A stretch of 64,000 nt of DNA from Pochonia chlamydosporia 170 (taxonomy: Eukaryota; Ascomycota; Sordariomycetes; Hypocreales; Clavicipitaceae): assembly GCF_001653235.2 (NCBI RefSeq), contig NC_035794.1, positions 4,216,001-4,280,000 of the forward strand, read 5' to 3'. Positions 13,299 to 35,678 of this stretch are shown piece by piece. Under the pieces are notes generated by a model. The model was not told the DNA's origin. It made no database searches and saw nothing but the letters and a program-made list of their open reading frames with translations. Each line of letters starts with the position of its first letter. The stretch's first letter is position 1. A program made the position numbers and the translations under genes.

Positions 13299-14392
13299 AT
13301 GGTTCAACTGCAGGATATCAAAGCCTCCAATGCTCGACTAGCCTCTACCCTCCCTGGCCTGGTTGCCGTCTTTGTTGGTGCGACGAGCGGCATTGGGGAG
13401 TTCACGCTCAAAGAGTTGGCACGTCATGCACGCTCGCCGCGTGTATATTTTACTGGCCGCTCACAAGAAGCCGGCGACCGCATTGCAGCTGAGTGCAGCG
13501 CGTTAAACCCCGATGGAATATTCACGTTTATCAAGGCAGATACGAGCCTTCTTCGTAACGTGGATGCCGTGTGTTGCGATATCAAGACCAAGGAAGAGTG
13601 TATCAACCTGCTTTTTCTGAGTGCAGGAACGCTCGTCCAAGGCGAATGTATGACCCCAACATCTCGAAGAAGTAGCAGAGCTGATAACTCCTTGATTGCC
13701 ACATATAAATAGACACGGCAGAAGGGCTCGACTTGGATCTTGCCTTGAAATACTACTGCCGCACACGCTTCATTTCCAATCTGCTCCCTCTCCTGAAAAA
13801 GGCAACGTCTCTCCGCCGAGTGGTCTCTGTCGCTGCCGGCACGAAAGAAGGACCTGTTGACCGATCCGATCTCTCTGCTGCCAAGAATTTGGGCATGCTC
13901 GCTCGTCGAGCTCATTTCACCACCTTCATTACCCTGTCACATACCATCTTTGCTGAGAAAGCACCAGAAGTCTCTTTTGTGCATGACTATCCCGGTGCCG
14001 TCAAATCTGGTATATTTCGTGGCAACACAGGTGTAGCCATGTTGCTAGTTAGAGCGGCCCTCAAAGTTATCGGCCCCTTCGTTTACATTCCCTCTGAAGA
14101 GTCCGGCCAACGCCATGTATACCTCTCCACAAGCGCTGCATTTCCTGCAGCAGCAGAGAGTAGAAACACTGGTACAGCACGTGGCCTTCCATTGGCAGCT
14201 AATGGACATGTTGCAAGAGGGATTGATGGCAACAAGGGCAGCGGTGTTTACTCAGTTGATCAAAACTGTGAGAGTGCGGGACAGGCTGTCGAGGAACTGC
14301 TTGCTAATCTGAAGAATGATGGAGTGCGCGACGAAATTTGGGAGCATACACAGAAGGTTTTTGATGGAATCACTGAGGCTAGAAAAGTCTAG
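13299..14392 (+). CDS. Atypical short-chain dehydrogenase/reductase
   Basis: Two exons (13299-13647 and 13713-14392) join to 342 residues. The cofactor loop is VGATSGIG (Gly27, Gly31, Gly33), so NAD(P) binding is likely. The usual NNAG is replaced by LFLSAG. After the strand RVVSVAAG there is no clear Tyr-x-x-x-Lys; the segment reads AHFTTFITLSHTIF instead. Splicing restores GEYTAEGLDLDLALKYYCRTRF-like sequence, which is well conserved in a fungal SDR subgroup found in many biosynthetic clusters. It probably oxidises or reduces an alcohol or ketone of the pathway product, but the missing tyrosine motif makes the chemistry uncertain. It ends 132 bp from the convergent P450. Confidence 0.75.
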
Positions 14393-14524
14393 AACCACCA
14401 TGTTGTCTGCTGAGCAGGTGGGAATGACGAAGGTTGGGGTATTGTGCTGTGCAGTTTGTGCAAGTTCAGAAACAAAAGGAGAATTGAGAACGTGGGGTCA
14501 TTATGGGCCAGAGACTTTTATTAT

Positions 14525-16279
14525 CTACACGAGCTTCTTGAACAGCACCGGAACGGTAGGGTCGGCCAAGACGTTGACCTCGAACATGATGTTCCTTGGT
14601 CGACCGGTCCCTTCTTTGAGCTTGATATCGTAGTTTTGCAAAATATGCACAAGAATGATCTTGATCTGATTGCTGGCAAAGAATCGGCCAGGGCAAGCAT
14701 CGTTACCAAATCCGAATTGCATGCTGTCGTAACTGGTGCTCGCGAACTGGTATTTGTTTGCCGCCTCTGGTGTGCTACGCAACTTGTAAAAGCGAAAACC
14801 GTCAAACTCGTTTGGATCACCCCATTCCGCAGGCGACTCGTCGAAAATGTTGGTATTGCATTGCACAATGGTCCCTGACGGGATGTTAAACCCGTTAGAA
14901 AGCTCAATAGGAACCAACGCTTTTCGCTGGAATGTGGCTGGTTCGACAACAAACGTTAGTTAGAGGATGGACGCCGCCAGTGATCTACAACTTACCGACG
15001 GATGCAGGACTGTGCCGCATCGACTCTTTCATAAAGCTGTCCAACTTCTTGAGATGTGTGAGGTCTTGCTTTTGGAGAAGCCCTTGGCGGTCCTTGGTCA
15101 CTTCCCTGATTTCCTGTCGAAGTGGCTCTAGATATTCTGGCCTGGCTGCCAAATCCAGCAATGTATGAGTGATGGCAAGTCTTGTTGTGTGGATGGCCGC
15201 AGTAGCTGTCAGCATTTGTATCTTGGCAAGTTCTTTAGAGTCGAACGATGTCTCCCCAATCTTCTTCGCCCTCTTCTGCATCCATTCGATGGTGTCGTAG
15301 TATGGGCGCTTTGTAGACATTTCTGCTTCCGCATCACGCCTTGCCAGCTCGGGTAGCAGCAGGTCATGGGCGTGCTTGTGGTCACCTTTGATGCGATTTA
15401 TTTCTGGGACGAAGAATTGCGCAATTGGACGAAGCCAAGGGTGCCAGAGCTTGAGCCTCTCAGCTCCTACCATAACGTCTGTGGCGAATTTGACGCTACT
15501 CTCTAGCCAGTCTTCACTTCGGCAAAGAGGGAGTCCAACAAAGATGCGAGCTGAAGCTTGTGCAACAACTCGATTCAGCTTTTCTTGGAGGTCAATTGGT
15601 GTCCAGTCTGGATGCGCTAGTTAGCTCTGGGGGTATACGACCTGAGAGTTGAAGAGTGAAGGTACCTTCGCATGGCGGAAAGATGGTGTTAAAACACCAA
15701 TCTACCTCTTGTTGAACATCCTCAACGAAATTGCCCAAGTTTCGGTTCAAGTCAATCTTGATAGCTCCCAGCATTACGTCACTCTCATGATCTATGGTGG
15801 TGTAGTGACCGATAAGCCGCTGTGAGTGGTTATTAGCTACCTTACTCCGGAGTGGTATTTGGGAAACTCTGTGGTAGGCAGACTTACATCGGCCAATGCC
15901 TTCATGCCACTGGCTTGGCGACGATTGTACGGTTTGAGGTCGACGGCATACTTCCTGGGCAGAAATAGTCTTGGTCCATCGGGTGTCAAGACCTGGAATA
16001 TACTGTCCTTGAACTGTGCATTGCAAATACAAATTAGAAACACAGCTGGAGAAGGGGAGGGCCAGTGGGCATGCAAACCTTTCGATACCCTTCACGTAAT
16101 ATGGCATCAGCTTCTTGTACATATCGTAGTTTTAGAGTGCTACTGTCTGCTTCGTCCAAGCCAACAGTGGGAACATTAAAAGCTTTTGGTCTCTTCCAGT
16201 ATACCGACAAGACCGAGATCAGTATCACAACAGCACCCAACACCGATGAAAATATTGTATATGACTCCACGCCCGCCAT
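14525..16279 (-). CDS. Cytochrome P450 monooxygenase (ent-kaurene-oxidase-like fungal group)
   Basis: Multi-exon gene starting at ATG 16279, with a single N-terminal membrane anchor (SVLGAVVILISVLSVYW) that places it on the ER. After removing short GT-AG introns the P450 landmarks follow in order: an I-helix with AIHTT in place of AGxDT, the K-helix ExxR in KESMRH, and the haem loop FGFGNDACPGRFFA near the C-terminus, whose cysteine is the iron ligand. AIHTT together with that haem loop is typical of the fungal CYP503-like/ent-kaurene-oxidase-type enzymes that hydroxylate terpenoids. Next to a terpene synthase 3.4 kb away, oxidation of the terpene product is the natural inference. The gene appears intact, about 500 residues. 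It is divergently placed to the glycosyltransferase-like gene. Confidence 0.85.
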
Positions 16280-17156
16280 AACTGTGATTCTGTATTTCAG
16301 TATCAAAAGGCAGGATTCCTTATTCCACCATCACAACAGGATTAATTGCAATGCCTTTAATGTTTGGTTCTGCAACTTCTGCATGCACCCCACCAAACCC
16401 CCACGGATCATGCATGTAAGAGAGCTTATGGTTACCTTGCGTGCCGTGTCATCTTATTATTACGAGATACACTCTTAGCGTTTAATGTTGCCTTGGCTAC
16501 ATGCTCAGTTTCCTCACTACTTTTCGCGGAATATACTCTGGGCTATAGCGGTCGCTGCCTTTGGAACCAGCACTCTTCTGGTATCATTCTGCGGTGCTGC
16601 TGGATGGCTTCAGTACTGGTTAGGATGTGGGGAGCTTCAGATGTTACTCTGCCAGACACTTTGCCGCCTTTCCATACTTGTGAAACGATCATTCCACGAC
16701 CAGAAGGTTGCATTGTTGCGCTTACTCTGCCACGATAAGCGGGGACTGGCCTTGCAAGCCACCGGTTGCATACGAACTGCAACGTCGAGTCGCCGTCGAA
16801 CCGACTCAATCTGGGATAAGGGAACGGTCAATAGCCGATAGGACGCCCATGTCAAGCACCTCGTGCTTCGTGCAAGGACATGCATGGACTCGGAATCGTG
16901 AATGGTTAGGCGCGTTCTGATTCCCACAGAAACGAATCGTCAAGGTGTGGGAGGAAGGAGGAATGTACGGGATGCGATAGAAGGTACCTTGAACAGCATC
17001 ACTTCGCGTTCTTACATCATATAACCACCCTCCTTGGTATCCTGTTGCCGTGACTCTGCCTGTTATCAGAAACCGCAAGCCTTGCCTACAGTCCCCTTCT
17101 ACACATCTATAACCCCCTTTTTGAGTCTTTCGAGCCAACAACTACACCAAGTCATC
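16280..17156. promoter_or_regulatory. Shared divergent promoter region, P450 and glycosyltransferase-like gene
   Basis: About 880 bp separate the start codons of the two divergent genes, so regulatory sites are probably shared. I did not find a repeated operator I would trust. The two frames of about 120 residues here lack protein-like motifs. Confidence 0.4.
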
Positions 17157-18386
17157 ATGGTGCCTTCAGCAGTGGATCAATGCGAAAATCGGGTGCCCGT
17201 TGGTCTCAAACTCATCCCGTCTGATAAGCTGGACGTCCGTTCAGACGAGAAGATTGCAGCGTGGCTTCAACAAAGACACCCCGTCACTTCAGATAAAAAC
17301 GTTTGGGCATTCTGGAACAAGGGGTATAGTCAGATGCCCCCTTGGGTTCAGCGCAATGTGATTAATTGGGTTCGACGTCTCGGCTCTGACTGGACAGTCC
17401 ACCTCCTCGACCTTGTCCCAGGCTCCGAGACAAATGTTTATCATTATCTGGATAAGCAGTTCTTTCCAAACGCCTTTAATGATAACACCATGGATGGACC
17501 GCATGTTGGTGCACATCAAGGAGACATTGTCCGACTTCCTCTGCTGTGGAAATATGGTGGCGTATGGATGGATGTAGGAACATTTCTCTTTCGCCACGTT
17601 GAAGACATCTGCTGGAAACTGATTGAAGATCCCGAGTCGCCTTATGAAATGTCCGGCTTTACCATCGAACTGCGTCCGGAATGCGATTCCATGTTGAATG
17701 GATTTATTGCTGCCAAGCGCAACAATCCATTTATAAAACGTTGGCTTGATATCTATCTTGCGCTCTGGACAGGCGCGACCAACTCTCATGACTTCCACAA
17801 GCACCCCCTCCTCAAGCATTTACCTCTTCTCTGTCCCGCAGTAGACAAGATGAACTGCCCTAATCTCAACGTTATGATGGAGAACTTCAGCGATTATCTG
17901 TCACAAACCATGTGTTACGAACGACTGCGCAAGCTGATTGACCCAGCAGATGGGTTCAATGGACCAGAGTATTTTTCCAAGCACATGTTTCTCACCCCAG
18001 CACTACAGGAGACGTTTTATTTTCAGCAGGTAACGGGTTGGTCTGGTACTCGACAGTTTGAGCTACTGACAACTCAGCGATCGGGCGAGGGTGTGGTGAA
18101 GGACGATAAGTGGCAGGATGCTGAGGACTTTGTGCATAAGGCATTGGCCAACACATCTACGATGAAGTTATCTCATGGACCTGCTGGCGCTCTTGAGTCG
18201 TTTCTGGCAGATCTATGGGACTCCAAAGAGCATTGCGATGCGGACAACGTAGAGGGTACTTTTGCAGCATACTTGAGATATGGAAGTGTACACTTTGACC
18301 AAACTAGAGAGTTGGTGCCTATCAAGTATGAACTCACTAAAGAGGAAGTGCTACATTGTGGTATTTTGGATCCCAAGGCAGCCTAG
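17157..18386 (+). CDS. Capsule-synthesis-type glycosyltransferase-like protein (Caps_synth/GT32-like)
   Basis: A single exon of 409 residues from ATG 17157. The N-terminal third has VWAFWNKGYSQMPPWVQ followed by VINWVRR, the pattern of the capsular polysaccharide synthesis family (PF05704) and related GT32-like sugar transferases. The nucleotide-sugar site is expected at GDIVRLPLLWKYGG then VWMDVGTF. Here the usual DxD is reduced to D139-V-G141, so metal or donor binding may be altered. There is no signal peptide or membrane segment, suggesting a cytosolic protein. Such genes occur in fungal secondary-metabolite clusters, where their role is often undefined. It could glycosylate the terpenoid or catalyse a different transfer. 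The family call is good; the function is open. Confidence 0.7.
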   Translation: MVPSAVDQCENRVPVGLKLIPSDKLDVRSDEKIAAWLQQRHPVTSDKNVWAFWNKGYSQMPPWVQRNVINWVRRLGSDWTVHLLDLVPGSETNVYHYLDKQFFPNAFNDNTMDGPHVGAHQGDIVRLPLLWKYGGVWMDVGTFLFRHVEDICWKLIEDPESPYEMSGFTIELRPECDSMLNGFIAAKRNNPFIKRWLDIYLALWTGATNSHDFHKHPLLKHLPLLCPAVDKMNCPNLNVMMENFSDYLSQTMCYERLRKLIDPADGFNGPEYFSKHMFLTPALQETFYFQQVTGWSGTRQFELLTTQRSGEGVVKDDKWQDAEDFVHKALANTSTMKLSHGPAGALESFLADLWDSKEHCDADNVEGTFAAYLRYGSVHFDQTRELVPIKYELTKEEVLHCGILDPKAA

Positions 18387-19728
18387 CTATGCAGAGAGTA
18401 TATTGAATTATGTATTTGACCGAACGTCTTACCAGTCACACAAAATGAACTAGTGAATGGAGTTCCTAGCAAATAGGTGATGACGCATTAGTAACGACTC
18501 ACTATTGAGGGTGCCATCAATGCGAGATGCTCCAGAAGTGACTCTTTCGCATGCAAGAGCCAAGTTGGCCTTCAAATCATCACCTTGATACCGTGAACCA
18601 GGCTGGTGGCAACATCTTGCAGTCTTTCTCACGCATCTGTTGTAGTGGTGCAGGTGCAGGGCGAGGTTTCCGGGATTACTCCCCAGCCTACTCATCAATA
18701 ATCCACTCCCATGCATGGCCAAGAACTAGTATACTTTGAGATATGCAGTCGTCATCTCGGTTAATGGGTTGCGATTTGACTTTCTCGATGGTGAAGGATT
18801 GGATACCTGGTCAGCCTGCCAAGATTTCGCCCGACATCGAGAAATCTAGACTTGACTCGACAGTGACGCGACGAACGTTACATCGAATATCAAAGTTAGC
18901 CGGTCTCACACAACATGGTAAGAGCCAATAACGAGATGGATAAGCCACTCGGGATATACTCACTTTGTCGATAGGGCGGGAACGACTAATTAGACATGTC
19001 GCCGCTAATAATAGCTGTTCATGCTTTGAGTGAAGCAGAAGTCCTTGGCGGGATACCAAACCCTGCACTCAGGCTGCTAATGCGGCAATGAGTTACTCTA
19101 CCGCTTCGCAATGGAATGATGCCCATATGTGAGATCTCAGGGGTGATACTAGTACACTACCAACTTTCAGGTAGTTTTGCTCTATTTTGAGTCGCTGAGA
19201 CCGCGGTTTTGCAAGGGATCAAGCGGCTATTATACAACTTCACCGAAGTAACAACGGCCCACCCTTCAAATCGCCATGCTGAATCCGGCTATATCTTTGA
19301 CTTCTCTCTTAACTTTGGTACCGATGACCTTCGTGCTTACTCTCGCCAGTAAGCACAACTCTACTAACTCGAAACTACAATGACCTACACATCGATGAGG
19401 AGTAACGTAATATCAGAACAGCATCGTGAGACAAGGTGGGCACTCGGCCTTTGAACTGACTGGACGCTTGCCTGGCGTGCTCCGTGTAAGAAGTTACCGG
19501 ATAAATGGTCAATATGAGTTCCCTTGTACCTCGCCACCTTGACTGTGATACGAGGGCTGGGCAGAGTGTATGGCGTAATCTATCAGCTACCATATATAGA
19601 TTCCCTTACATCCTGGCCAGGTTTGGACAAGATTCTTAATGTACCTAAGTGCTGCTCTTGTATACCTCCTAGCCTCCTTCTAGACACACACACATACACA
19701 CACACACTCACAAAAGAGACTTGTCAAA
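18387..19728. other. Intergenic region upstream of terpene synthase
   Basis: A 1.3 kb gap with no convincing frame. Just before the terpene synthase ATG, positions about 19684-19711 carry a (CA)n-rich run that probably lies in the 5' leader. Confidence 0.5.
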
Positions 19729-21181
<1,453 letters not shown>

Positions 21182-21661
21182 AGATCATGGCATGAGGTAA
21201 TATTTTCGTCGATATAGAGCACACAATATACGTATCCGTTTGTACCAGATACTTGGCGAGATCTGAATAGCATGATTGCAAGTAGCTTTGCACAGTATCT
21301 TTGCACAACTACAGCCAAACAAATGATGAGCTAGCACCAAGCAACTCTATTACAACAATTTTGCTTGAATGGTCAAAAATGATCACGAAGAAGCTGGTCG
21401 TGGATAAGAGCAGCTCTTGGTATGCATGATCCGAATCTCTTTCCGAATACATTTAAAAGTCCCGAAATATATGAAATCCCGCTTTATATTAATAAAAGAT
21501 AGAAATATTAGACAGGGTTCAATGTAAGAGAGAGGCCATGCGCGCCAATACAAAGACAGTGAATGTCTCAATGCGGCCAACCAAATGTCAAATCATATAG
21601 CAGGTCGCATGTATGCCCCCGTTCAGTCTAAGTCTCTTCACTCGCGAGGTACGGGATCCGT
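21182..21661. other. Convergent intergenic spacer
   Basis: 480 bp between the terpene synthase and copper amine oxidase stops. AT-rich, probably holding both 3' ends. No gene seen. Confidence 0.5.
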
Positions 21662-24016
21662 TTACAGCTTGGGTGAGCCCATCTGGTTGTTTGTAGTGTT
21701 CAAAATTTGACTCGCTGTGGTGGCTCGTTGCGGTGGTACATCCATGACCGGGTTATTGCTAAAGAAGTTGCGTGGCCGCAGCAGCAATGTCATAGGTTCC
21801 ACCGGCATGATGGGGAAATCTTCTGGGGAAGGGAAATGCACGACTCCAAAAGTGTGCCACAAGACAATATCCTCGTTGTCAATGCTCTCTGAGCCGTCGC
21901 CAATCCACTCGGTGAGACCGACGTCAGTCTCACCAGAGGTTTGTGGAACGTGTCTGCCGGCGGGCCAGAATTGATCGTCACGGTCTGTATAATGATCAGT
22001 GTTAATAGCAGTGACTTGAAGCTCGGGGCTGTTGCATCTGAAGCATGCTTGAGAATACGAAAGGTGCGACACTTACACTTGGTGACGTGAACTGCATGCC
22101 GGGCAAACCCAGCTCGTTTCCACACGAGCGAGCCTGGTTTCGGTAGCAGACGAGGAACCTCACGGCTCACAAGTTTGTAGCTGGCTGGCTTTTTGCTGAA
22201 TGGATGGATCTTGCTGGTGTTGCAAATGTCCCAGGATCTGACTGTCGCGCCGTCGTAGTCGGTCATTGCTTGTCCAGTGGTAGCCAGCTTTGTCTTTTTG
22301 GCATAAAATGCATTGCCATATGGGTTCATAGGGCTTCCAACAGGCTCATCAGAGGCGACAGCGTCAGTCATGAAGACAGTATTCCGTGGTCCGTCCACAT
22401 TTGCGTTGATTCGGAGGCAAAACAGGTGTTGATGGTTATGTGCATTGACGCCTTTCATTCCCAGTTGTCAGTCGTAATCGTAGGTTTTACGTCGTAAACA
22501 ACTTACCGGGATACACCTCAGTGCCCCATCCATCGGTGTCTTCACCAGGATTGATCGAATACGTGTTCAAGATGCCCGTCAGCTTAATTTCTGGCTGAAT
22601 GGTACCATCTTGCTAGATGATTGTTAGTTGTTGCTGTTTTAGATGAACACCATGATGACCTACATGGAAAATCCACTAAAAGAGCCAAGGTTAGCTTGCT
22701 TTAAATTAATCCTAATTGGAGTTGGCACCTACTTGGATAGCATACTCGTAGTTGGCTGCGGTAAAAACTTGCTGAATAATGAGCTTGCGAGCCCTAGTGA
22801 CGATGCCTGACTCATCTCTAAAGTCGGTGTGCTTAAACAGAATGCCATTATCCTCTTCATGGATGCAGATGGCATTCTTGATGTGCCTGATGTTGCCGTC
22901 TCTGGTGGGAAACTCCGCGTCTAGGTAACGAATGTATCCTTTACAGTCACAGCCAAGTCTGAGGCTGTTGGTCATGTACCCAGCACCATACTCACCAAGA
23001 TCAAAGGCATGCTTTCTCTGATGAGGGCGATCAGGATTGCCACTGGATATGGTCAGATACTCTTATCTCAATGTCTCAATACTGTGGCTCATCGATTCAA
23101 CTTACTAAGGTACAACCATTTCCACCAGGGACATTCGGTAGAAAATTGGACGTTCAGTGCCTTTGTCGTTGTATCGTATGTCACTGAGAACGATACCTTC
23201 TCGGTAATTGAATCCGATGTGGAATCTCCAATTCTGCCACTCCATCTCTCTGCCGTTCAGCTTAAACGACGGACCTTCAGGTTGAGTGATTTCCAGCGGT
23301 TTCAAGTCAGTGCGATAACCACCCTTGGCATTGATGTCAGCTGGATAGTAATTTATTGTCGCTTCCCTTCTCAGAGGACGTCGCGTCTTTGGAATATCGA
23401 TGTGAATAATTTTATCCTTGTCACTATCGTAAATAGGACAAAAGTCCAATGGATACTGATACTGGCAGTCATCGATGTTTGGCCTGAAGTACATGAGCGC
23501 TTGTTGGAGGCGAACATTGCTGCCGAAGCGTTCATCGTAGCCAATGGTCCAAGGGTCGCAATAGACTTTGTGCATTTCATCTCTGGCGATGCCACTGATT
23601 TCGCATTGTTTGATGACACTGGAATCAGTGCGAATGACTTGCTCAACTCTCTGCAACTCCTCCACGGTAATCTAAGAAAATGTGCGTGAGTTTCCAATTC
23701 ATCAAGATGTCATTGTAATACTTACAATTGGTTGTCTGCCATTGACCCATTCCCACTGAACAATTTGGCTCTTCCCAAGGTCGACTAGACCATCGCCAAC
23801 TTTGCCGCCAGGTGCAATGACTGAGACGTCAGCAACACGAGGTGGTTTAGTTGCATTGGATCGTTCCGCCAGCCATTTCGTCATGCCCGCTTTGCGAGGC
23901 TCATGGAGGGAGACAACATGGAAGTTTACATTTTTGTGTGTCTTTCTCACAATGGAAATGACATTCTGTATTTCCGTCGCTGAGAGGGGGTCTAAAGGAT
24001 GCTGTGTCGGCGCCAT
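21662..24016 (-). CDS. Copper amine oxidase (primary amine oxidase)
   Basis: Several exons join to about 680-700 residues, the normal fungal length, from ATG 24016. The N-terminal N2/N3-like domains are present. The catalytic aspartate lies in KHAFDLGEYGAGYMTN. The tyrosine converted to topaquinone lies in AANYEYAIQ. Two copper histidines are in NAHNHQHLF and the third in VVHFPSPEDFPIMP. All active-site parts are therefore present and the enzyme should oxidise a primary amine to aldehyde, ammonia and hydrogen peroxide. The last four residues end in PKL, close to a PTS1-like peroxisomal tail (SPKL*), so peroxisomal location is possible but weak. It faces the terpene synthase tail to tail. It could supply nitrogen from amines or act on an aminated pathway intermediate; the latter is inference. 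Confidence 0.9.
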
Positions 24017-24964: not shown

Positions 24965-26185
24965 TTACCAAGGATACTGCCGGACCTCGTCCTCACGACT
25001 CAAGTCTAACCCGTCCTGCATTTGCTCCTCATGCTTCTTGTCCAGGTATTCAAGAAGAACAGCTCCATACTTCTCTCTCCCTTTATAGTTGGAAACATCA
25101 TGATCCCAGCTGCGTACAGCACTGGCTAATCTGCCAGGTACATATTCTTCCTGGGCAATTTCCGTTATTGGGAGGAAGTACGTACGAATGGTGAAACAAA
25201 TGGCTCCGGTTTTGGGTAGCCGTCGTAGAGATTGCCTCTCAGACCGAAACCAATGGTTTTCAATAATTTTGTCCTTCTCAGCTGTGCTCCAACTTACCAC
25301 CGGGTCGTCCTCCCCGCCGATGCTGTGACTCCATGGGAGTGAATCATCCACCTGAATGAAGTAGTTGTTGCGGCCATGGAGCGTATCCGTCTTCATACGC
25401 TGGAAAAACTTCATCATGCCTCTTTCGAGCTTTTCTCTGAATGACGGTACATTCCCAGATGTGTGAATATCTGACAATGACATGCCAAATTTATCGGAGA
25501 GCCTCCAGAACCCAGCTAAGAGAATGCATCCAGCCAGAAGACGGTATGAGCCGTCTGGTTGTTCCAATAGCAAGGCAAGATCATCCTGAACCAATCGCGC
25601 ACACATTGCCATCGGGTCTTCTCGAAGAGGGCGCTCAGTGATGTCGAAAGACTCACCCGACCAAAGATTATCAATCCCGACCGAAGTTCTTTTGTAGAGA
25701 CTAGGATAGCGAGCCGGAAGATAACCCACGAGTTCCTCTAGCAGTTCGACGGCGGCAGGATAGGCATCTGGGTGAGTTTTGACGCATTTGCTGCCCCGTT
25801 CTTGAATCCGCGTAGCTTTGTCCGCGTGGTATTTTGGAAAGTGGTTATCAAGTTCAATCCATTCATCTCGCTCGATGGTTCGTAGACCCATCGTGATGTT
25901 ATACTTTGGGCCATATCGAAACGCCCTGTAAGGGAGAGGCTTGGTGTGATGAATCGACCACTGCGAATACGATCGAGGTCTTTGTTGTTTATAGCATATT
26001 GGATTAATGGGCTTCTCAAGTTGCTCCCCGTGTTTTTCCGTAACAGAGCGTGGCGTCTGTCCGTCAAAGGCCCCTTGCTTCGAACGTCGTTCAATCGCGA
26101 CGTACCACAATGCTATGCCAGCAACGGCCAAGAGTACGAAGACTCTGAACCCGCCGTAGGGATCAAGAAATACTGGGACCGACAT
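24965..26185 (-). CDS. HODM/DUF3445 family haem-dependent oxidative demethylase-like protein, membrane anchored
   Basis: A single-exon frame. The true ATG is at 26185, giving 406 residues. Residues about 10-30 form one hydrophobic segment (VFVLLAVAGIALWYVAI) followed by basic residues, so it is probably anchored with the domain in the cytosol. The soluble part matches DUF3445 (PF11927): MGLRTIERDEWIELDNHFPKY near the start, then SLPWSHSIGGEDDP, and the most conserved block RSERQSLRRLPKTGAICFTIRTY. Bacterial members are haem-dependent oxidative N-demethylases acting on dimethylamine-like groups. Fungal members, some called HRQ proteins, are mostly uncharacterised. Position next to a copper amine oxidase and a terpene synthase suggests oxidation of an N-substituent or another tailoring step. 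It is flanked by a 16-bp direct repeat. Confidence 0.75.
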   Translation of the reverse strand: MSVPVFLDPYGGFRVFVLLAVAGIALWYVAIERRSKQGAFDGQTPRSVTEKHGEQLEKPINPICYKQQRPRSYSQWSIHHTKPLPYRAFRYGPKYNITMGLRTIERDEWIELDNHFPKYHADKATRIQERGSKCVKTHPDAYPAAVELLEELVGYLPARYPSLYKRTSVGIDNLWSGESFDITERPLREDPMAMCARLVQDDLALLLEQPDGSYRLLAGCILLAGFWRLSDKFGMSLSDIHTSGNVPSFREKLERGMMKFFQRMKTDTLHGRNNYFIQVDDSLPWSHSIGGEDDPVVSWSTAEKDKIIENHWFRSERQSLRRLPKTGAICFTIRTYFLPITEIAQEEYVPGRLASAVRSWDHDVSNYKGREKYGAVLLEYLDKKHEEQMQDGLDLSREDEVRQYPW

Positions 26186-26864
26186 CACTGCTCTTAGAAG
26201 GCAGAAGTTCAAATTTTGTGTTGGTTAGATGTAGTGCTTCTGGACTTGGTGGTCAAGGTTGAGCACAACACGAGAAGCAAGGTCAAGTATACCAAGTGGC
26301 CCAATGGCGGCGATATGTTGCTGTGCCTCAGCTTTTTAGTATGATGCGATTTCTGTGGCCAATCCTCGAACTGCTCGTTTAATGCCCCATGGAGATGCAT
26401 AACTATCCTTGAGGCCCAATCGCTAGACGGACTGATCATCATGTTTCATAAGGTGCGGTGAAAGTGACAACTGGTGCCAATGCCCGCCGGAAACATTTTC
26501 CTAATCAGGAAATCAGCTGCCATCACACATCTCCAACACGGCACCTATGCAACTCTGACGCCAGAGCAGGACGCAATGCACAACCATTGACGGTCCGGAA
26601 TTTGTAGACGAATGGCGTTAGCATATTCCAAGAATTCGGATGATTCGCCAAACACTATGATCATTCTTAGCTATCTCGGCATTGCGCGATCTAGACTCGG
26701 AAATTCGACAGGAGAGTACTTACATGCGACAAGTGAATTGCCTGGGCGTTCCAAACTATTAAAGTCTGCATATTCCAAAGAGACTGTATTTTGCTTTCCT
26801 TTCTTTCTCCCCTGTACGTAATACTCGCCCTGAACAACAAAGCTACCACAATTTTATAGCAAAC
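26186..26864. promoter_or_regulatory. Divergent promoter region, HODM-like gene and cupin
   Basis: 680 bp between two divergent start codons, likely holding both promoters. The second copy of the 16-bp direct repeat (26207-26222) lies within 40 bp of the HODM-like ATG. Confidence 0.4.
26207..26222 (+). repeat. 16-bp direct repeat, copy 2 (flanks HODM-like gene)
   Basis: GTTCAAATTTTGTGTT in the same orientation as copy 1 at 24867-24882, 1340 bp away, with the HODM-like gene between them. Confidence 0.85.
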
Positions 26865-27230
26865 ATGGGTTCCAATTCACCATCATTCCAATTCTATCCC
26901 CAGGCGCAATCCAAGTTCCAGATTCCGCTCCTCGCAAGCGACAATGCCTTCTTAGGAGATGTCTTCTCCAGTGAACAAACATCAGACACGCCGATTTCGT
27001 CAGGCTTCTTTAGGCTGAAGAAGGGAGAGCCCTTAACATACACGTACAAGTACGATGAGATGAAAATCTTCCTTGAGGGAGACTACACCATTACCGACGC
27101 CGGGGGTCAAACAACTACTGCTCGACCAGGTGACGTGGTATTCTTTCCAAAAGGTGCCACAATTACTTTCACGACATCCGACCACGGTCTAGCCTTCTAT
27201 GTCGGCCAACGAAAGAAGAACGACTTTTAG
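26865..27230 (+). CDS. Small cupin protein, EutQ-like
   Basis: A single exon of 121 residues, one cupin barrel. The second half shows the cupin pattern: TYKYDEMKIFLEGDYTI, then RPGDVVFFPKGATITF (the PGD turn), then the last strand. Overall it resembles the ethanolamine-utilisation EutQ-like cupins that fungi also carry as single-domain proteins. The usual two-histidine metal motif is not obvious (YDEMKIFLEG contains Glu but no His), so metal binding and catalysis are doubtful; it may bind a ligand or guide a reaction. In the cluster it is divergent to the HODM-like gene, and the amine theme (ethanolamine-type cupin, amine oxidase) recurs. There is no signal peptide. Confidence 0.75.
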   Translation: MGSNSPSFQFYPQAQSKFQIPLLASDNAFLGDVFSSEQTSDTPISSGFFRLKKGEPLTYTYKYDEMKIFLEGDYTITDAGGQTTTARPGDVVFFPKGATITFTTSDHGLAFYVGQRKKNDF

Positions 27231-27651
27231 GGTGGGCAGTCTTGGAGAAGTGGGCAGGTGTAGCCTTGACGTCTTTGGAGATTGGTACGAATGCATTTAA
27301 AGTTGGCTTACAGAAGCATTTTGCAAAGCATAAGACTACTTTCTAAACTGCCCTCGCAATGTGTTCCATTTTCGTACAGTCAAAGCCAATGTCTGAACGA
27401 TGTTCAGGTCTAAAACAAGCCAGCTATCATGGTGACATCCTTCGTCAAATGACCGAAACTCCCTTTAGTGTGAGAGCTACGCTCTAATCTTTTTGAGGAT
27501 ATGTGAATACGAGTGCCCGTACCTCGATACTCTCTCGTGGCGAACATTGAGGAGGAATAGTATGATGCTGAAAAGAGATATGGCTGCAGACGTCAACCAC
27601 TACGAGCACAGCTCGAATGACTGAAATCAGCCTACACTTCGCCGGGACGCC
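27231..27651. other. Intergenic gap
   Basis: 3' side of the cupin and of the remnant that follows. No recognisable gene. Confidence 0.5.
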
Positions 27652-27779
27652 TTAAAGAGAGTCGAAGATCTTGATCATAAAGCCCTCGTTCTCATGTTGA
27701 TTGCTCAAGTAATGCCACTCCAGTCCAGGTCTGTGCAAGAGCATCAATGTTTCGCCATGGCGGTTCCGCATAATGTAGT
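27652..27779 (-). pseudogene. C-terminal remnant of a CmcJ/AsaB-type hydroxylase/methyltransferase family gene
   Basis: A 42-codon minus-strand piece behind a plausible acceptor (GGTAG at about 27780) ends in EWHYLSNQHENEGFMIKIFDSL and stops at 27652. The pattern W-x-Y/F-L/P-x-Q/M-x-x-x-E-x-x-x-x-K-x-F/Y-D-S is the C-terminal signature of the CmcJ/AsaB-like (GA4-desaturase-like) oxygenase family in fungal clusters. I could not find the upstream domain: the preceding 200 bases have stops in all likely frames. It is therefore called a remnant. The match is short, so the family call is only moderate. Confidence 0.4.
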
Positions 27780-27966
27780 CTACCGTCAAAAAAATTGGCA
27801 TCAGTAACCCTCCCATCCTCTCGCTACTTGATGGGTTGGCGACTTAGCTGGGGAAGCGGTTGGAGGACTGGTGTTGAATTTCTTGCATGCCCTGTGAGGC
27901 GACATCTCTATAGTGGGCCTTGTTTTGAGTATTGGAAAATTCGGTATTATTCTTTATGCTATTAAA

Positions 27967-28835
27967 TTAAGCATTGGTACTAGCAACTCCAACTTCTGGT
28001 CCATGTGTGACTCCGCGCTCTGTCTCCCAAGCCTCAAATCCGTTGAGGTATTTTTCGGTAAGGTATCTCATTGTGTTCATGGCACTAATTTTATAAGTAC
28101 GAATCTGTTTGCTGGACGTGTTGAGCAGCTTACCCTCTCCTGAAACGTAATGATGAGCTATATGCAATTGAGGAATGCAAGTCATATCGGCTGCGACAGG
28201 TCAGTGGTTCGCATCTACTGTATTTTATGTCACTTACATTGAGTACAGTGCATTGCGATCATCGTGATCCTCTTCTGGAATGGAGATAGGAAAATGCTTC
28301 TGATATGCTTTAATGTAGGACTTTCCAAAGCGATATCGAAGCGCCCTCCACGTTCCTATCTCGTCTTTTTGGCGCTGAGACTTCGGGACCCCCAAAATGC
28401 ATTTTGTTTTTAATATTTTCGGGACTACTTACACTCATTATGCGCCCAGAAGACACAGGCGTCAAAGACAATAGGCTTGCCGGTTGCATTGTCAGTGCAG
28501 CAGTTGCCATACCAAAGATCCCCGTGAATCAAGACGGGAGTGATGGAATTGAGGACACTAAGTGGCTGTAGGAGGCGCGGTATTACTTTTTCATACAACT
28601 GCTCACAGAGGGCACTCATTTCTGCGTTTGGGCCATGGACATCTTGCTCGCGCGCAAGCATCCGCACCACGCCTTGTCGAAAGAAATCCTCCCATGTATC
28701 GCACCAGCTATTATCCTGTGCTGCGAAACCCATGTGGGTAGGCACAGGAAAACCATACCTGCCCGGTGACAGTGGCAACGAGGTTTTGTGAAGCCTTGCG
28801 ACGGCCGAAGTGAAACAGTGACCCTGGATGGGCAA
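27967..28835 (-). pseudogene. 5'-truncated fructosamine/ketosamine-3-kinase family gene
   Basis: Four minus-strand exon pieces splice cleanly into the C-terminal two thirds of a fructosamine-kinase (PF03881) protein. Piece one contains AVARLHKTS, SWCDTWEDFF and the catalytic loop VLIHGDLWYGN followed by IVFDACVFWAHNE. A GTAAGT intron then gives HNEYEIGTWR, the next gives ALYSIRYDLHSS and SLRF, and the last encodes LTEKYLNGFEAWE before TAA at 27967. The first 110 or so residues, holding the ATP-binding N-lobe, are absent. Just upstream is a stop, and 100 bp further is the 3' end of a Zn2Cys6 gene. It cannot make a complete kinase. The conserved exon borders suggest recent truncation. Confidence 0.65.
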
Positions 28836-28943
28836 ACAGCGCCTCCCAGGCTACGAAAGTAAAAGGAGTTCAAAATAAGTAAATAAACAATAAGGCAATT
28901 CGGGATTTTGTACAACTTTGTCTGGTATTACAAATCATGAGTC

Positions 28944-31031
28944 TCATCCAAAAAGCGACCGTAAATCGTGAGCTTCCATAACATCCAGCCAATGCACGTT
29001 GATGCAGCCAGCAGGCTCCGTGTCATAAGCTGTCCAGATGGCCTTGACAAGTTCTTTGGCCACAACGATTGGCCTCGGTTGCAAAGTGTTCTCGAGTATG
29101 TTGAGTCGCCTGATGATGAATTCGCGCGATGTACTAATATCCAGGGCTCTTTTCCGTGGCAGGCAGACATCCGTCTGGGCATGCCCCGAGTTACCAATTT
29201 CATCCACATACTCCAAAATACTTGTGCTATTGCAGTCTAATGGGGAGTGTTGATTACTTCCTCTTCTCTGCGGGGAGTTGGTTGATGGGTTGGGAGGCGG
29301 CGATGTTGCAGCATTCGATGAGTTGTATCGCAGGCCAGTGCTGGCACAGATGTACAGGACAGGCTGGATAACTCGACTACCAGAGTCTGGGGGGATCTTC
29401 TCCAAAACCTTGATGAGGTCAAGCGTCAAGGGAATGATGAATTTGTCCCAAGACTCACAGTCGTCAGATGGCATGGAACTGTCCGCTTGAAGTCGCATCG
29501 ACACAAGATCCGGGAAGGTGACATATAGCTGCAGCAAAGCAGAAAGTTGATATGCTTCAGCGGCGCTCGCGAGGTGTAGCCACGGCGTCTTTTGGTCTCC
29601 AGTTTCGTTTATTTTGGACATTGAAGAGTAATCCAGCTCAAGAAGCTGCTGCTCTAGTTGTCGGGCCTCCTGAAAGGAATCCATCGCTGCGGAGAGAGTA
29701 ATGACTCTCCCAGTTGGTTTAGTGAGTATTCGACGGTATTCTCGACACAAAGTAACGGACCTCAAGAATAGGCGAGACGTCCGGCTTGAAATACCTGTCC
29801 AGGGATGTGGTGACAAATCTGTGCTTGTTTCACAGCTACTCTTCTCACATCGTTGCAGGTTTGAGTTCGCTGAGACAGAGTCCCCCAGAGTGCCCACTAC
29901 ATCACTGTCGGCAACAACAGCCAGTAGCATCTCCCAATATACGAGGCTATTCTTGAAAAACAGAAAATTTTCCAATTCGTCTTCTCCAATGGCAAGATCC
30001 TGGTCTCTTAAACGCCGAAGTAAAGCTCTAGCTTCTTTGAGGTACGGTAAACCAAGAAGCCGGGCGTCAAGCCAGCATACTGACGTCCCCAAGCAGAGTA
30101 AGGAGAAGAGTAGGCCCGTAGGGAAGACATCAATACGGGGCTTGCTCTTCAGTTCGTCAATCTCAGCCTGGACACAGACGCTGGCGGTCTTGAAGAGACT
30201 CAGCGCTTGGCGGCGCAGGTGTGGAAGTCGGGCGGATAGAAAGCCCGCCGACATGCTCTGAAGAGAGTTGAACACGGAAGCAGAGTGATGCCACAGCGAG
30301 TTCGCCAATTTGCGATTTAGATTGACAGTAGAGTCAAACGCGGACCATGCAGGGCAGACTTGGTCGAACCAGCTATTTATCAGAGCCAAAGTTGCGTCTG
30401 GACCTTCGGTCCAGCAAGGTGTTTGCGGGATCGTTGGGATTGGGGCAGCGGCGGAGAGCGAAATTTGGTTCCATATGGTCGGTTCTTGGGACGAGATACT
30501 TGTTATGCTAGTCCTCGGTGATAGCGACAGGGTGGGAGATGCAGAAAACTCCATGTCTGGTAGTAGACTGGTGGTTTGGAGAGAGCTGGGAGATGTGACA
30601 CACATGTCGGCGTCCCATAGTTGGCTGCTTCCATCGTCGAATACATCGAATGGCAACAGGGACAAGGAGACGAAATCATCAGTCCCTGGTGTAGCTTCTG
30701 TGATATCGACCTGTGGTGGCGACTGTACGATGGGATCTACATCAGATTCGACCTGTTTTGTTTTCTTACTTTGTGAGTTTTGCCTTTCGTTAGGCTTGTG
30801 ACGACGAGTTGGTTGGTGTTTGTATGACCACACAAGACCACGGGCGTAACCACCGCAAGCCAGGCCCTTTTGAAGGCATTTTTGGCAATTGGGCCTTGCC
30901 TCGTCACATTTTACCTGTGCTGAAGTCAGCACATATCCTCGAGTGTCATCATAATTAATGTTGCCACTTACGTGTTTCTGCTTGCAAGTCAGGCAGCCAG
31001 CACGAGACCTGTGTCTGGGACGGTCTGACAT
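28944..31031 (-). CDS. Zn2Cys6 transcription factor with frame-preserving intron inside the zinc cluster
   Basis: The open frame runs 695 codons from ATG 31031. The zinc cluster is only correct if a 57-bp intron (30915-30971, GTAAGT...CAG) is removed: CLTCKQKH joins VKCDEARPNC, giving C13-x2-C16-x6-C, then C-x2-C-x6-C. The spliced product is 676 residues. If the intron is kept, the frame stays open but 19 residues enter the DNA-binding loop. The C-terminal 400 residues are helical and of the Fungal_trans_2 type, with a Ser/Thr/Pro-rich linker before them. This is the best candidate pathway regulator for the terpenoid block, since it lies between the last metabolic gene and the permease. GATA sites lie upstream of its start. 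Confidence 0.85.
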   Translation of the reverse strand: MSDRPRHRSRAGCLTCKQKHVSGNINYDDTRGYVLTSAQVKCDEARPNCQKCLQKGLACGGYARGLVWSYKHQPTRRHKPNERQNSQSKKTKQVESDVDPIVQSPPQVDITEATPGTDDFVSLSLLPFDVFDDGSSQLWDADMCVTSPSSLQTTSLLPDMEFSASPTLSLSPRTSITSISSQEPTIWNQISLSAAAPIPTIPQTPCWTEGPDATLALINSWFDQVCPAWSAFDSTVNLNRKLANSLWHHSASVFNSLQSMSAGFLSARLPHLRRQALSLFKTASVCVQAEIDELKSKPRIDVFPTGLLFSLLCLGTSVCWLDARLLGLPYLKEARALLRRLRDQDLAIGEDELENFLFFKNSLVYWEMLLAVVADSDVVGTLGDSVSANSNLQRCEKSSCETSTDLSPHPWTGISSRTSRLFLRSVTLCREYRRILTKPTGRVITLSAAMDSFQEARQLEQQLLELDYSSMSKINETGDQKTPWLHLASAAEAYQLSALLQLYVTFPDLVSMRLQADSSMPSDDCESWDKFIIPLTLDLIKVLEKIPPDSGSRVIQPVLYICASTGLRYNSSNAATSPPPNPSTNSPQRRGSNQHSPLDCNSTSILEYVDEIGNSGHAQTDVCLPRKRALDISTSREFIIRRLNILENTLQPRPIVVAKELVKAIWTAYDTEPAGCINVHWLDVMEAHDLRSLFG

Positions 31032-33731
31032 GACGGTTGTTGATCTCTACCGTCTGAACTGGGAAGTCGTTTCGCTGGCAGCTGTTTGCTGGTTTCCTTC
31101 AGCTCCCATAGACAGCTGGCGGATTCTGCTCTCGAGAGTTCCAGCCAGTGTGTAAGTGTTGGTCGATTGTCGCGATGTTGGTGGAGTGGCGACGGACAAT
31201 GCGAGCGGGGAGGGTTGTAATGTGGCGTCGATGTCACTTCAAAGTTTAGTTATCTCTGCTATCTTTTGATACCGCATGCAATGATATCGTAGGTGTTCCG
31301 TCAGATACGGAGATAACGCATGATAGATAGGACGAGATAGCCAAGCAGATAGGCAGATAGATGGATACCTGGACAGAGAGGATCCTTTGAGATGCTGGAA
31401 CTGGGTCTGGCGGATAAAGCTTAGAGTCTTTCCCCCGTCAAGTTCAACTTGACTTGTCAAGCTTCATCTCACCCCGCATTTCGGGATGGATGTGACATGC
31501 TAGTCAATACCAAGTTGTTCAGAACCAAGAGATGGGGATCCACCATCCAAGTTCTGGATTCTGGGGTAACACAGGACTAGCAAGGGAGTATTTGTGGCGG
31601 GTCATGCGGACCCTGATCGAACTGGTAGGTCCAAATGTTCAGCCGTATGAAATTGGCTTGCCCATTATATTAAGCCAGAATCCAGCTTCTTCCCAGCTCC
31701 GACTCTCCAGTTCTGGGGCCGGGCGGATGCCTTGTGGACAAGCGGACCACATCTTGCAATTACATTCACTAGCAATCGAAGTTGGAACCCATAAAGAATT
31801 GATCATGACTGCTTCTTTATCATCTATTCTACCTGAACCGGATACTCCCCAAGGGAGCAAACGCCAATAACCGCTGAGCTGCTAGCTTGACAACTATGGG
31901 CCTTACTGCCGCAACCCTTTTAAGGGTAAAATCTGGTCTTTACGTCCTCTCCGGATGACGTTGTTGTTGCTGAATGTAAATTTCGCCGAAATGAAACAGA
32001 CTGATGCTCCTCGCCGATCATTGACGACGCACTCGAATATATATGCGTCAACCGACAGTGCCCGCTGCCGCAGCATCACTCTGAACTGCGCCGCTAATTG
32101 AACCGACTCGCCATTCTACATCTAATCAATGAACCGGCAACATCAACATGCCAAGTTTTTGAACATTATTCCATTGGGCTCATCTTCTGCATTGGGTAGG
32201 GGAAGAGAATCGTGACAGAACGGCACCGCCAGTGCGTGCTCAATGATGAGCTTCTGCCTCCTCATGGTATTATAACCAGAGTCGCAAAACATCGTCCGGG
32301 AGGTGATTGACCGTAATTTTGGCGACCGTAAGACAACATTGAATGCTCCACTTAGATGTCGTTACAGTGCGTCGATGGCAGTCTCTCTTGTACCTGTCCT
32401 AACGCTCTGTTAGTTTACCATGGCACTGCAATATCACCAACAGTTAGCTCTCGTTAGAGTAGTCAACTGATGTTGACCTGAGCCTTTTGTAACACCAAAT
32501 CACGTACCAGATCACTAACCCTGACCACACGTGCTTTGCCCGGAGAGAACCCAAGGGAGCTTACTGTGGCTAGACGGTGATGAAATAACAAATGAAGTAG
32601 GTTATAAGGGCGGACAAGCAAGATCCGAGTTTACTTGCATGTGGCGGCCAAATTCTTCATCGGTATTTGGCGAGGTTTAACACATCTTGTACCACCAAGC
32701 CAATAATACAGCAAGGAGATTCCTCACTGCTTACATGACTGGTCGTTGGCACCATTGGGCCAGACCCCTCCTTCCTTTACGTGACATCGAACTCAATTAT
32801 TTAGATAGGCCGTGGGCGGCATAAAGGTCACAGAATCGCACCAATGCCCTCATCCGACAAGTTCACGGGATTTACTACAACTTCCAAAGTAGAGTATTAG
32901 AGAGACATGGCCGTTCTGTCCAGATTAGCAGCTTCCTAAGCGCTGCACTGTTCCAAGGGTGGCTGCTGCTGCAAGTCTAGCCCTGGAAGCTGGCTCGCAC
33001 TGAGCCCACAGCTGAATGCTAGTCCGGACTCTGCATATGTACTCCGTAGAGCCTCGGAATTCTACACAACAGTCCGTCTTCCCCTTGTTCCAGCGTCCTT
33101 GCTGGGAGAGGGCAGTGCAGTGTCGGCTAAATATTGTTGACATGGAGCAAGCTTTGCGGAGGGAGCAGTCTTGATACAAAGGCCGACTTCCTTACCAGGT
33201 ACATTATACAACATCCCAGCCACGAAGTGCCGTAGAGGGGGACCGACCTTACCGCATTGGGTCCGATTATCCGGCAGGGTGGCTTTCTCCTCAGTGCTCT
33301 CAGACTCCTCACCTTGCCAATGCCTGGTCCCAAACTGTCCTGCTGTTGTTGGGTATCTACCAGCTCGGCTCTGCGTTCTTCTTGTTTCTCAGCCTACTGT
33401 TTTCCGAGGATAAAATTTCTACATCTGGAAATGATGGCTGCTATCTTCATATCCTCACCACTACATGCTCACCACGGCAATGACGACTCCAGTACCCTCT
33501 GGGCAACACGGAGAGACAGAGCGCCCGCGTTCCAAAATTAACGGATAACGAAGTTGGAGATATCTGTGATATCTTTAGCCCCAATACAGAAGAACCTTGT
33601 GATACATCTATCAGCGGGATGGCTGATTTATATCTATCTCTAGCCTGCTGTCAATATATCACGCTCACACGAGCCACTGGCCTTGTTGTTATTATCAGTT
33701 CTTAATAGGTTTTTTATGTACTGTTTACAAT
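31032..33731. other. Long divergent intergenic region
   Basis: 2.7 kb between the divergent Zn2Cys6 gene and the permease. It contains a GATA cluster (31322-31367), a TACTCCGTA word near 33040 and several short frames (for example 31532-31870, 33257-33541) with no protein-like pattern. No gene or transposon could be supported. Confidence 0.5.
31322..31367 (+). promoter_or_regulatory. GATA-site cluster (possible AreA/NIT2-type binding region)
   Basis: Six GATA tetramers within 46 bases on the plus strand, several matching HGATAR, about 300 bp upstream of the Zn2Cys6 start. Fungal nitrogen regulators bind paired GATA sites. Neighbouring amine oxidase and permease genes make nitrogen control plausible, but binding is not shown. 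Confidence 0.4.
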
Positions 33732-35678
33732 ATGACTGAATCGCCTGAAAAAGCGCTTTCCAACAGTAGCGATGGGGTCGATCATCTCGAACATGCTTCG
33801 CGCACCCATGGAAACGATGTAGATGACCTCAACACGCTGGGCTACAAGCCCGAGCTACAGCGCAACCGTTCCATGTTTACACTATTATTCCAGTCTCTTG
33901 CCATAGCGGCGGTTAGTCTTCTTCAGCTATGGAACTTGGCTACTTATTGCCAAATTGCTGACCGCTACAGATTCCCTATGGCTTTGGTGCACCGCTCATC
34001 AATGCAGTCTATGGCGGTGGTAAGTCAACTGGCACAATGCAGATAGGGGAATGTGCTCAATACTGACTGTGATCGTATTTGGCTTTCAGGACAATTGGCC
34101 ATGTTCGTTGGGTGGATCATGGTCTGCATATTGGACGAATGCATAGCTCTGTCTCTCGCAGAGCTGGCAGCAAAATACCCTACCTCAGCAGGACCTTACT
34201 ACTGGTCTTTTCAGATTGCTAGCCCTCGATATCGGACCGTTCTGTCATTTATAACGGGTTGGACTTGGCTGGTAGGCAACTGGACCATAACACTATCAGT
34301 CAACTTCGGATTTGCATCCCTTCTTGCCGCGACTATTGCGATTTTCTACCCCGAGTATGAGTGGCAGCCTTGGAAACTCTTGTTGGTCTTCTACGCTCTA
34401 ACCCTTGTAACGTTTTTTATCGTTGCATTTGGAAACAAATTTCTGCCAAGCGTAGACACCTTTTGTGCTGCATTCACAGCTTTGACGATCTTCATCACTC
34501 TCATCTGCCTGTCTGTCAAAGCCGAGGATGGCAGACATTCTGTAGCAGATACACTAGTGAGTTTTCACCTTGCTCGGTATGGCGCAACAACCTTTTAACA
34601 ATCGCTCTTCTCGCATAGGCCCATTATGACACTACACTCTCCGGGTGGGGAGATTTCTCATACTTGATCGGGATTCTGCCACCAGCCTACACGTGAGTAA
34701 CTCTCCCTTCTTGAGCCTTGAAACTCTTGGTCTGGTGCGCCCTGCTGACCTTTCTCAGATTTTCTGCCATTGGCATGATAACGTCCATGGCTGAAGAGTG
34801 CGGTGATGCTACCACCAAGCTTCCCAAGGCATTGTCACTCTGTGTGCCCGTTGGATGCATAGCCGGGTTATTCTTCGTGAGTTTCCTTTACAACCAGCTC
34901 GAAGCTTCTTGGGTGGTGCATTCAATTTAACGGTGCCTAGGTCATCCCAATTTGTGCAACTTTGCCCGATTTGCAGCTTCTCTTGGAGGCGCCCCTCGGC
35001 CAAGTCCTTCCCTACCTCTATCTTCGCGTAATGGGAAGTTCCGGCGGCGCCTTGGCTTTGACCATTCTAATTCTTGCCATCACGCTTCTCTGCTCGATAT
35101 CCATTACTGTGGCTGCTTCGAGAACAACTTGGGCATTCGCTCGGGACGAAGCTATTCCTGGTGCCAAGTTGTGGTCGAAGATTCATGGCCGCCATGGCAC
35201 TCCAATCTGGGCCCTTACACTGACGACAGTGATCCAAATGTTGCTAGGTTTGATCTATCTCGGATCTAGCTCAGCCTTCAACGCCTTTGTCGCTGTTGGG
35301 GTGATTGCACTAGCAGTCTCCTACGGTGTCCCGATCGCTTTGTCAATGCTAACTGCACGAAGCGGCGTGAATACTGCGCCGTGGAACTGCGGCAAAGCGC
35401 TCGGTTGGGTAGTCAATGGTGTTGCGGTCTGTTGGATCGCGCTTGAGCTCGTATTATTCTCGATGCCGCCCGCTATTCCGGTAACCGCCGTGACGATGAA
35501 CTATGCCATCGTCGTCTTTGTAGGGTTCATGGCCATAAGCGCCGTATGGTACTTTGTTCATGCCCGCCATGGTGTGTTCTATACCTTCCATCAGGTGGTC
35601 AACGTTGAGGCTAACTTTGTGTTTGCAGTTTATCAAGGACCTCCCGCTTCGGATGGATTAACCATTGCAACTAGATAG
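33732..35678 (+). CDS. APC-family amino acid/GABA/choline permease
   Basis: Six exons (33732-33911, 33971-34019, 34090-34556, 34619-34692, 34759-34876, 34941-35678) join in phase to 541 residues, a typical length. The N-terminus is hydrophilic. The protein then shows about 12 membrane segments. Family blocks include IPYGFGAPLINAVYGGGQ, AELAAKYPTSAGPYYW and SMAEECGDATTKLPKAL, the last two being strong marks of the fungal GABA/choline/amino-acid (Uga4/Hnm1-type) APC group. It likely sits in the plasma or vacuolar membrane and imports an amine or amino acid. Beside a copper amine oxidase and HODM-like enzyme it could supply an amine precursor, which is inference. All splice sites are GT-AG and no damage is visible. 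Confidence 0.85.

Follow-up and report, generated by a model that had tools for sequence, protein, structure and literature searches.

In the nematode-egg-parasitic fungus Pochonia chlamydosporia, a predicted sesquiterpene synthase gene is found beside genes for a copper amine oxidase and for a protein resembling the haem-dependent oxidative N-demethylase (HODM), and this raises the question of whether all these genes serve one terpenoid pathway or belong to two gene sets lying side by side. A sequence-only reading of the locus had proposed a single pathway of undescribed type, leading to a nitrogen-bearing sesquiterpenoid processed by the amine-oxidizing enzymes. In our study, the window, that is the whole stretch of 64,000 nucleotides at C5:4216001-4280000 of the sequenced genome (44,215,803 bases, 49 contigs), has been analyzed computationally, and the locus is probably composed of two adjacent gene sets, a cluster of the bra type and a group of amine-catabolism neighbours.

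The gene models came from a basic home-made finder, the splice sites of which were then corrected by eye, the exon borders being our own calls from the sequence. The genes named by the sequence-only reading were found close to where it had placed them and were open from start to stop once spliced, and their Pfam scores were far above chance with the exception of the SDR. The gap between the P450 and glycosyltransferase genes was 877 bases and that between the glycosyltransferase and synthase genes 1342 bases, while 480 bases separated the synthase from the amine oxidase and 948 bases the amine oxidase from the HODM-like gene. No clear boundary was marked by GC content across the locus. Promoter words (HGATAR, CGG-type sites and common 9-mers) gave no clear split between the two gene sets, the common words coming mostly from bidirectional promoters, and scans of the window with Rfam at gathering thresholds and for tRNA genes were empty.

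Table. Predicted genes of the locus, with positions counted in the window and names assigned from domain families and alignments.
Feature	Position	Strand	Details
SDR-like protein	13299..14392	+	2 exons, 342 aa; PF00106 28.1 bits
Cytochrome P450, candidate BraC-type oxidase	14525..16279	-	5 exons, 501 aa; PF00067 E 5e-47
Glycosyltransferase, candidate BraB-type N-acetylglucosamine transferase	17157..18386	+	single exon, 409 aa; Caps_synth PF05704
Predicted sesquiterpene synthase, brasilane-type (BraA/TaTC6-like)	19729..21181	+	6 exons, 392 aa; PF19086 119 bits
Predicted copper amine oxidase, peroxisomal methylamine-oxidase type	21662..24016	-	7 exons, 660 aa; PF01179 545 bits
HODM alpha-subunit-like protein	24965..26185	-	single exon, 406 aa; PF11927 312 bits
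EutQ-like cupin	26865..27230	+	121 aa; PF05899, PF06249
Fructosamine-kinase-like fragment	28425..28850	-	PF03881 79 bits, profile positions 105-222 of 288
Zn2Cys6 regulator	28944..31031	-	2 exons, 676 aa; PF00172, PF11951
Amino-acid/amine permease	33732..35678	+	6 exons, 541 aa; PF13520 160 bits

Some further features of the window were observed. The fructosamine-kinase-like fragment was absent from the sequence-only reading; its N-terminal part was not seen in the window, and other matches to this family exist elsewhere in the genome. The stretch from 36000 to 64000 holds genes for a DUF3425 protein (37809), MFS transporters (47111 and 51136), a GFO/IDH oxidoreductase (56862) and, as read by eye, an FAD-monooxygenase-like protein near 52800.

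The synthase was found to keep its metal-binding and C-terminal motifs, which confirms the complete motif set noticed earlier. Comparison with solved structures placed it very close to Terpene cyclase 6 (PDB 7w5f), with 670 bits over residues 29-389 and the same metal-binding segments; the next solved cyclases, guaiadiene synthase and presilphiperfolanol synthase, gave 102 and 83 bits. We take the protein in PDB 7w5f to be TaTC6 of Trichoderma atroviride. Judging from this alignment, the window synthase is close kin of the solved terpene cyclase 6 and is predicted to be a brasilane-type terpene cyclase. A protein search gave 83 matches at E <= 0.001, and those with names belonged mostly to Xylariales or Trichoderma, the remainder being Talaromyces, Pseudogymnoascus and a handful of further taxa; the identity was 65-77% to the six named Trichoderma matches and reached 79% for Xylariales, in alignments spanning about 90% of the length. 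Most of the named matches come from taxa for which the available text of PMC8403587 reports the bra cluster. A Fusarium sesquiterpene cluster was also considered and was rejected, as no Fusarium was named among the 83 matches. In a tree of 30 of these matches, no well-supported small group held the window synthase; the nearest rows by path were three Trichoderma, and long-branch warnings make parts of the tree unsure. The window row falls among the 28 rows of a 28/3 split, and hence the tree was not used as support for the kinship. At least seven terpene synthase loci, including that of the window, were counted in the genome from exon matches grouped by hand.

The bra cluster, as published, is built on a core of three genes, which code for a terpene cyclase, a P450 and an N-acetylglucosamine transferase (available text of PMC8403587), and that of Annulohypoxylon truncatum produces brasilanes A, D and E (Feng et al. 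2020, as cited in PMC8403587, PMC7732752 and PMC12299000). The functions of its genes were assessed through expression in Aspergillus oryzae, and brasilanes bear N-acetylglucosamine, according to the available part of PMC7732752. In the excerpt of PMC12299000, BraB is named an N-acetylglucosaminidase, a label which we have taken for a slip. In the window, as in A. truncatum, a cyclase of the same kind, a P450 and a glycosyltransferase lie side by side; they are contiguous at 14525-21181, and the home-made gene finder placed no gene between them. Since these three genes correspond to the published gene set, this segment reads as a bra-type cluster, in which the P450 is the candidate BraC and the glycosyltransferase the candidate BraB by family and neighbourhood. 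In contrast to the A. truncatum cluster, the window adds an adjoining SDR-like gene and then the amine oxidase, HODM-like and cupin genes. TaTC6 itself has been described as a trichobrasilenol synthase that is not clustered in T. atroviride (available text of PMC7687074), whereas the window synthase has the neighbours of the bra set. The terpenoid cluster with a cyclase, a P450 and a sugar transferase is present, but the proposal that the combination is undescribed is not supported, because the kinds of gene in its core are those already described for bra (PMC8403587 and PMC7732752, as far as their available text goes). The cluster is real and of a known kind; searches of the open-licence literature found no report that connects Pochonia with brasilanes and, for brasilane glycosyltransferase with Metarhizium, nothing beyond the survey already cited.

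The assignment of the tailoring genes is less direct. The P450 carries the ExxR motif as ESMR and the haem loop FGFGNDACPG. The glycosyltransferase was assigned at the family level (PF05704 67.5 bits, PF04488 24.7 bits) and found no match among solved structures (best E 0.1); its AlphaFold models, alone and with one paralog, had a mean pLDDT of 35 and 36 and were not used. The segment GGVWMDVG is conserved between it and a paralog in the same genome, a second Caps_synth-type glycosyltransferase at C3:4776583-4777086 with 51% identity. In the SDR-like protein, the Pfam match is weak (28.1 bits against a cut-off of 26.6) and a motif check showed the YxxxK motif to be absent, so that its catalysis is doubtful and may be atypical; it is possibly an accessory gene of the terpenoid cluster. 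Directly upstream of this gene lies an amidase gene, from 10377 to about 12375 on the + strand (PF01425, 289 bits on one exon), the last exons of which are uncertain. With the glycosyltransferase placed as Caps_synth alone and an SDR gene outside the three bra core genes (available text of PMC8403587), the locus might resemble the bra cluster in its cyclase step and no further, the P450, SDR and glycosyltransferase making a different glycoside with another sugar or oxidation pattern. We consider this unlikely, given that the core holds exactly the kinds of gene known from bra and that the match of the cyclase to terpene cyclase 6 is so strong.

The copper amine oxidase is intact, as had been stated, with the full three domains of the family (PF02727, PF02728 and PF01179) and the NYEY cofactor site, the TPQ precursor motif, at residue 383. 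Among PDB entries, the peroxisomal copper amine oxidases/methylamine oxidases (3sx1, 2oov and 1a2v, all presumably of yeast origin) aligned with it at about 845 bits over residues 4-649 of 660, and the next group at 386 bits. The window enzyme is like them in this alignment and in NYEY. It differs from peroxisomal enzymes having the standard signal in its tail, as this signal was not found at the C-terminus, where the tripeptide is PKL. Among the best 120 of 7320 homologs, NYEY was kept in all 120 and the standard peroxisomal signal ended 22; the identity in these 120 ranged from 71 to 89%, with 88-89% to Metarhizium proteins and 74% to that of N. crassa. From these comparisons, the enzyme is predicted to be of the peroxisomal methylamine-oxidase type, and it is judged a neighbour outside the terpenoid cluster. 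Exon matches grouped by hand gave at least nine amine oxidase loci in the genome, the one in the window included.

The HODM-like protein matched the haem-dependent oxidative N-demethylase of PDB 5lte, which we take to be bacterial, at E 3e-14, and the two are alike in the alpha-subunit family PF11927; unlike the 5lte protein, the window protein bears an N-terminal hydrophobic stretch, as read by eye. The family is widespread (1449 matches). In the best 120 of these, the top match was unnamed with 99% identity, and the best named ones were a P. chlamydosporia paralog, Metarhizium and Conoideocrella. Fusarium and Colletotrichum were also present in these 120, and a single Colletotrichum was the only representative of the two among the synthase matches. 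A tree of 21 of the 120 united the window protein with Metarhizium, Conoideocrella and the Pochonia paralog in a group of five rows (100/99), where its sister, at weak support (82/75), was this paralog, which lies on chromosome C1 (C1:1777228-1778067) and is about 76% identical to it. The C1 paralog itself showed 100% identity over 412 aa to a protein of P. chlamydosporia 170. An initial assignment from pairwise identity, which made the window protein the only Metarhizium ortholog in the genome, was dropped because the tree pairs it with the C1 paralog. As this pairing is weak, common ancestry alone is claimed, and the two copies are perhaps derived from a duplication in the Pochonia lineage. 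In all, at least five HODM loci, that of the window among them, were counted in the genome by hand-grouping of exon matches. The HODM-like protein, too, is judged to be a neighbour outside the terpenoid cluster. Searches of the open-licence literature for DUF3445 in gene clusters gave nothing of use, and those for heme-dependent oxidative N-demethylase and methylamine found nothing. The cupin gene is divergent from the HODM gene, a 679-base intergenic stretch being common to both, and it was the sole EutQ-family match found in the genome.

Linkage of these genes in other species was approached through a proxy, in which contigs of equal size holding both genes in species of the same name suggest one contig and not adjacency. 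The input comprised 75 synthase, 55 HODM and 76 amine-oxidase species names from the matches listed, and as species were paired by name, some pairs compare different assemblies, apparently including the synthase-amine oxidase pair of Daldinia eschscholtzii. HODM and amine oxidase were on equal-sized contigs in 3/17 species (M. rileyi, P. takamizusanense and C. gorgonifer), which belong to three families with contigs of 0.34-2.0 Mb; the sizes differed in the others, including Geosmithia, Clonostachys and Stachybotrys. HODM and synthase shared such contigs in none of five species. None of the three species is named among the 83 synthase matches, and the best named relatives of both proteins outside Pochonia, among the matches listed, are in Metarhizium; both observations speak against the earlier claim that the two enzymes take part in the terpenoid pathway. 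A name missing from the synthase list says little about whether the gene is missing, since P. chlamydosporia is itself unnamed there though its genome has the gene. For synthase and amine oxidase, equal-sized contigs were found in 5/18 species, all of them Xylariales (Whalleya, Annulohypoxylon maeteangense, Hypoxylon FL1284, Parahypoxylon and H. trugodes), and the sizes differed in 13/18. We take A. maeteangense, Hypoxylon FL1284 and H. trugodes to be Hypoxylaceae. The contigs of the four Hypoxylaceae in this set measure 2.8-4.3 Mb and that of Whalleya 749 kb.

Under a rough model of a 40 Mb genome, 0.76 equal-sized contigs were expected for HODM and amine oxidase against 3 seen (P ~0.03), and 0.59 against 5 for synthase and amine oxidase (P ~0.0001). 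For contigs under 2 Mb, the former pair was seen in 3/12 species with 0.20 expected (P ~0.0007) and the latter in 1/13 with 0.13 expected (P ~0.13). It could be argued from the low count for HODM and amine oxidase, and from their different contigs in Geosmithia, Clonostachys and Stachybotrys, that the amine oxidase, HODM and cupin genes are mutually unrelated and the whole right half of the locus is a chance order. This is regarded as rather unlikely, because the three matching species come from different families and the excess holds for contigs under 2 Mb. The excess of synthase-amine oxidase pairs over chance, for its part, speaks against the two sets being cleanly separated on the chromosome, although it may reflect one inherited chromosomal event, as four of the five species are Hypoxylaceae on megabase contigs.

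This linkage and the tight spacing from the synthase through the amine oxidase to the HODM-like gene are the main support for one extended pathway, in which the amine oxidase and the HODM-like protein would tailor a nitrogen-bearing sesquiterpenoid; the predicted product class, moreover, bears an amino sugar (PMC8403587, PMC7732752 and PMC10488430, in their available text). We nevertheless consider such a pathway very improbable. The amine oxidase belongs to the peroxisomal type and has close kin, among the matches listed, in N. crassa and Metarhizium, neither of them named among the synthase matches; HODM relatives are widespread; and most of the synthase-amine oxidase pairs lie on different contigs, with the reservation given above for D. 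eschscholtzii. An even slimmer chance is given to an extension of the bra core in which the amidase would deacetylate the N-acetylglucosamine, whose freed or methylated amine would then be oxidized by the amine oxidase or by the HODM-like protein; if true, it would lead to a new sugar-modified brasilane, but copper amine oxidases normally require a CH2-NH2 amine, which makes it unlikely. Against one extended pathway it also counts that three core genes are given for the bra cluster and that the extra neighbours at the H. fragiforme bra locus were judged unlikely to be co-regulated (available text of PMC8403587).

In the preferred reading of two gene sets, the first comprises the synthase, the P450, the glycosyltransferase and perhaps the SDR. 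The synthase would cyclize farnesyl diphosphate to a trichobrasilenol-type brasilane alcohol, the glycosyltransferase would attach a sugar, presumably N-acetylglucosamine, and the P450 would oxidize the brasilane skeleton, presumably in this order. The nitrogen-bearing sesquiterpenoid suggested earlier is thus still likely, as the predicted brasilane N-acetylglucosaminides carry nitrogen, but the nitrogen would be supplied by the sugar and not by the amine enzymes, since the gene set matches the cluster that makes such compounds. The second set comprises the peroxisomal-type copper amine oxidase and the HODM-like haem protein, perhaps with the cupin, permease and regulator, and from family membership it may serve to draw nitrogen from methylated or primary amines. 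The amine-oxidizing genes are most likely nitrogen-catabolic neighbours, which explains them better than a role in the terpenoid pathway.

As to the activity of this class, brasilane A has been reported to act on Gaeumannomyces graminis, a pathogen of wheat (available text of PMC10488430), whereas the brasilanes of Feng et al. are described as inactive in antibacterial, antifungal and cytotoxic respects (available text of PMC8403587). The bra cluster is known from Hypoxylaceae, Xylariaceae, Trichoderma, Talaromyces, Monosporascus and Pseudogymnoascus, and Clavicipitaceae, the family of P. chlamydosporia, are not in the groups given in that available text. Our study therefore predicts a specific class of compounds, the brasilane amino-sugar glycosides, for a fungus parasitic on nematode eggs, and it carries a warning that conserved catabolic neighbours should not be added to a predicted biosynthetic pathway.
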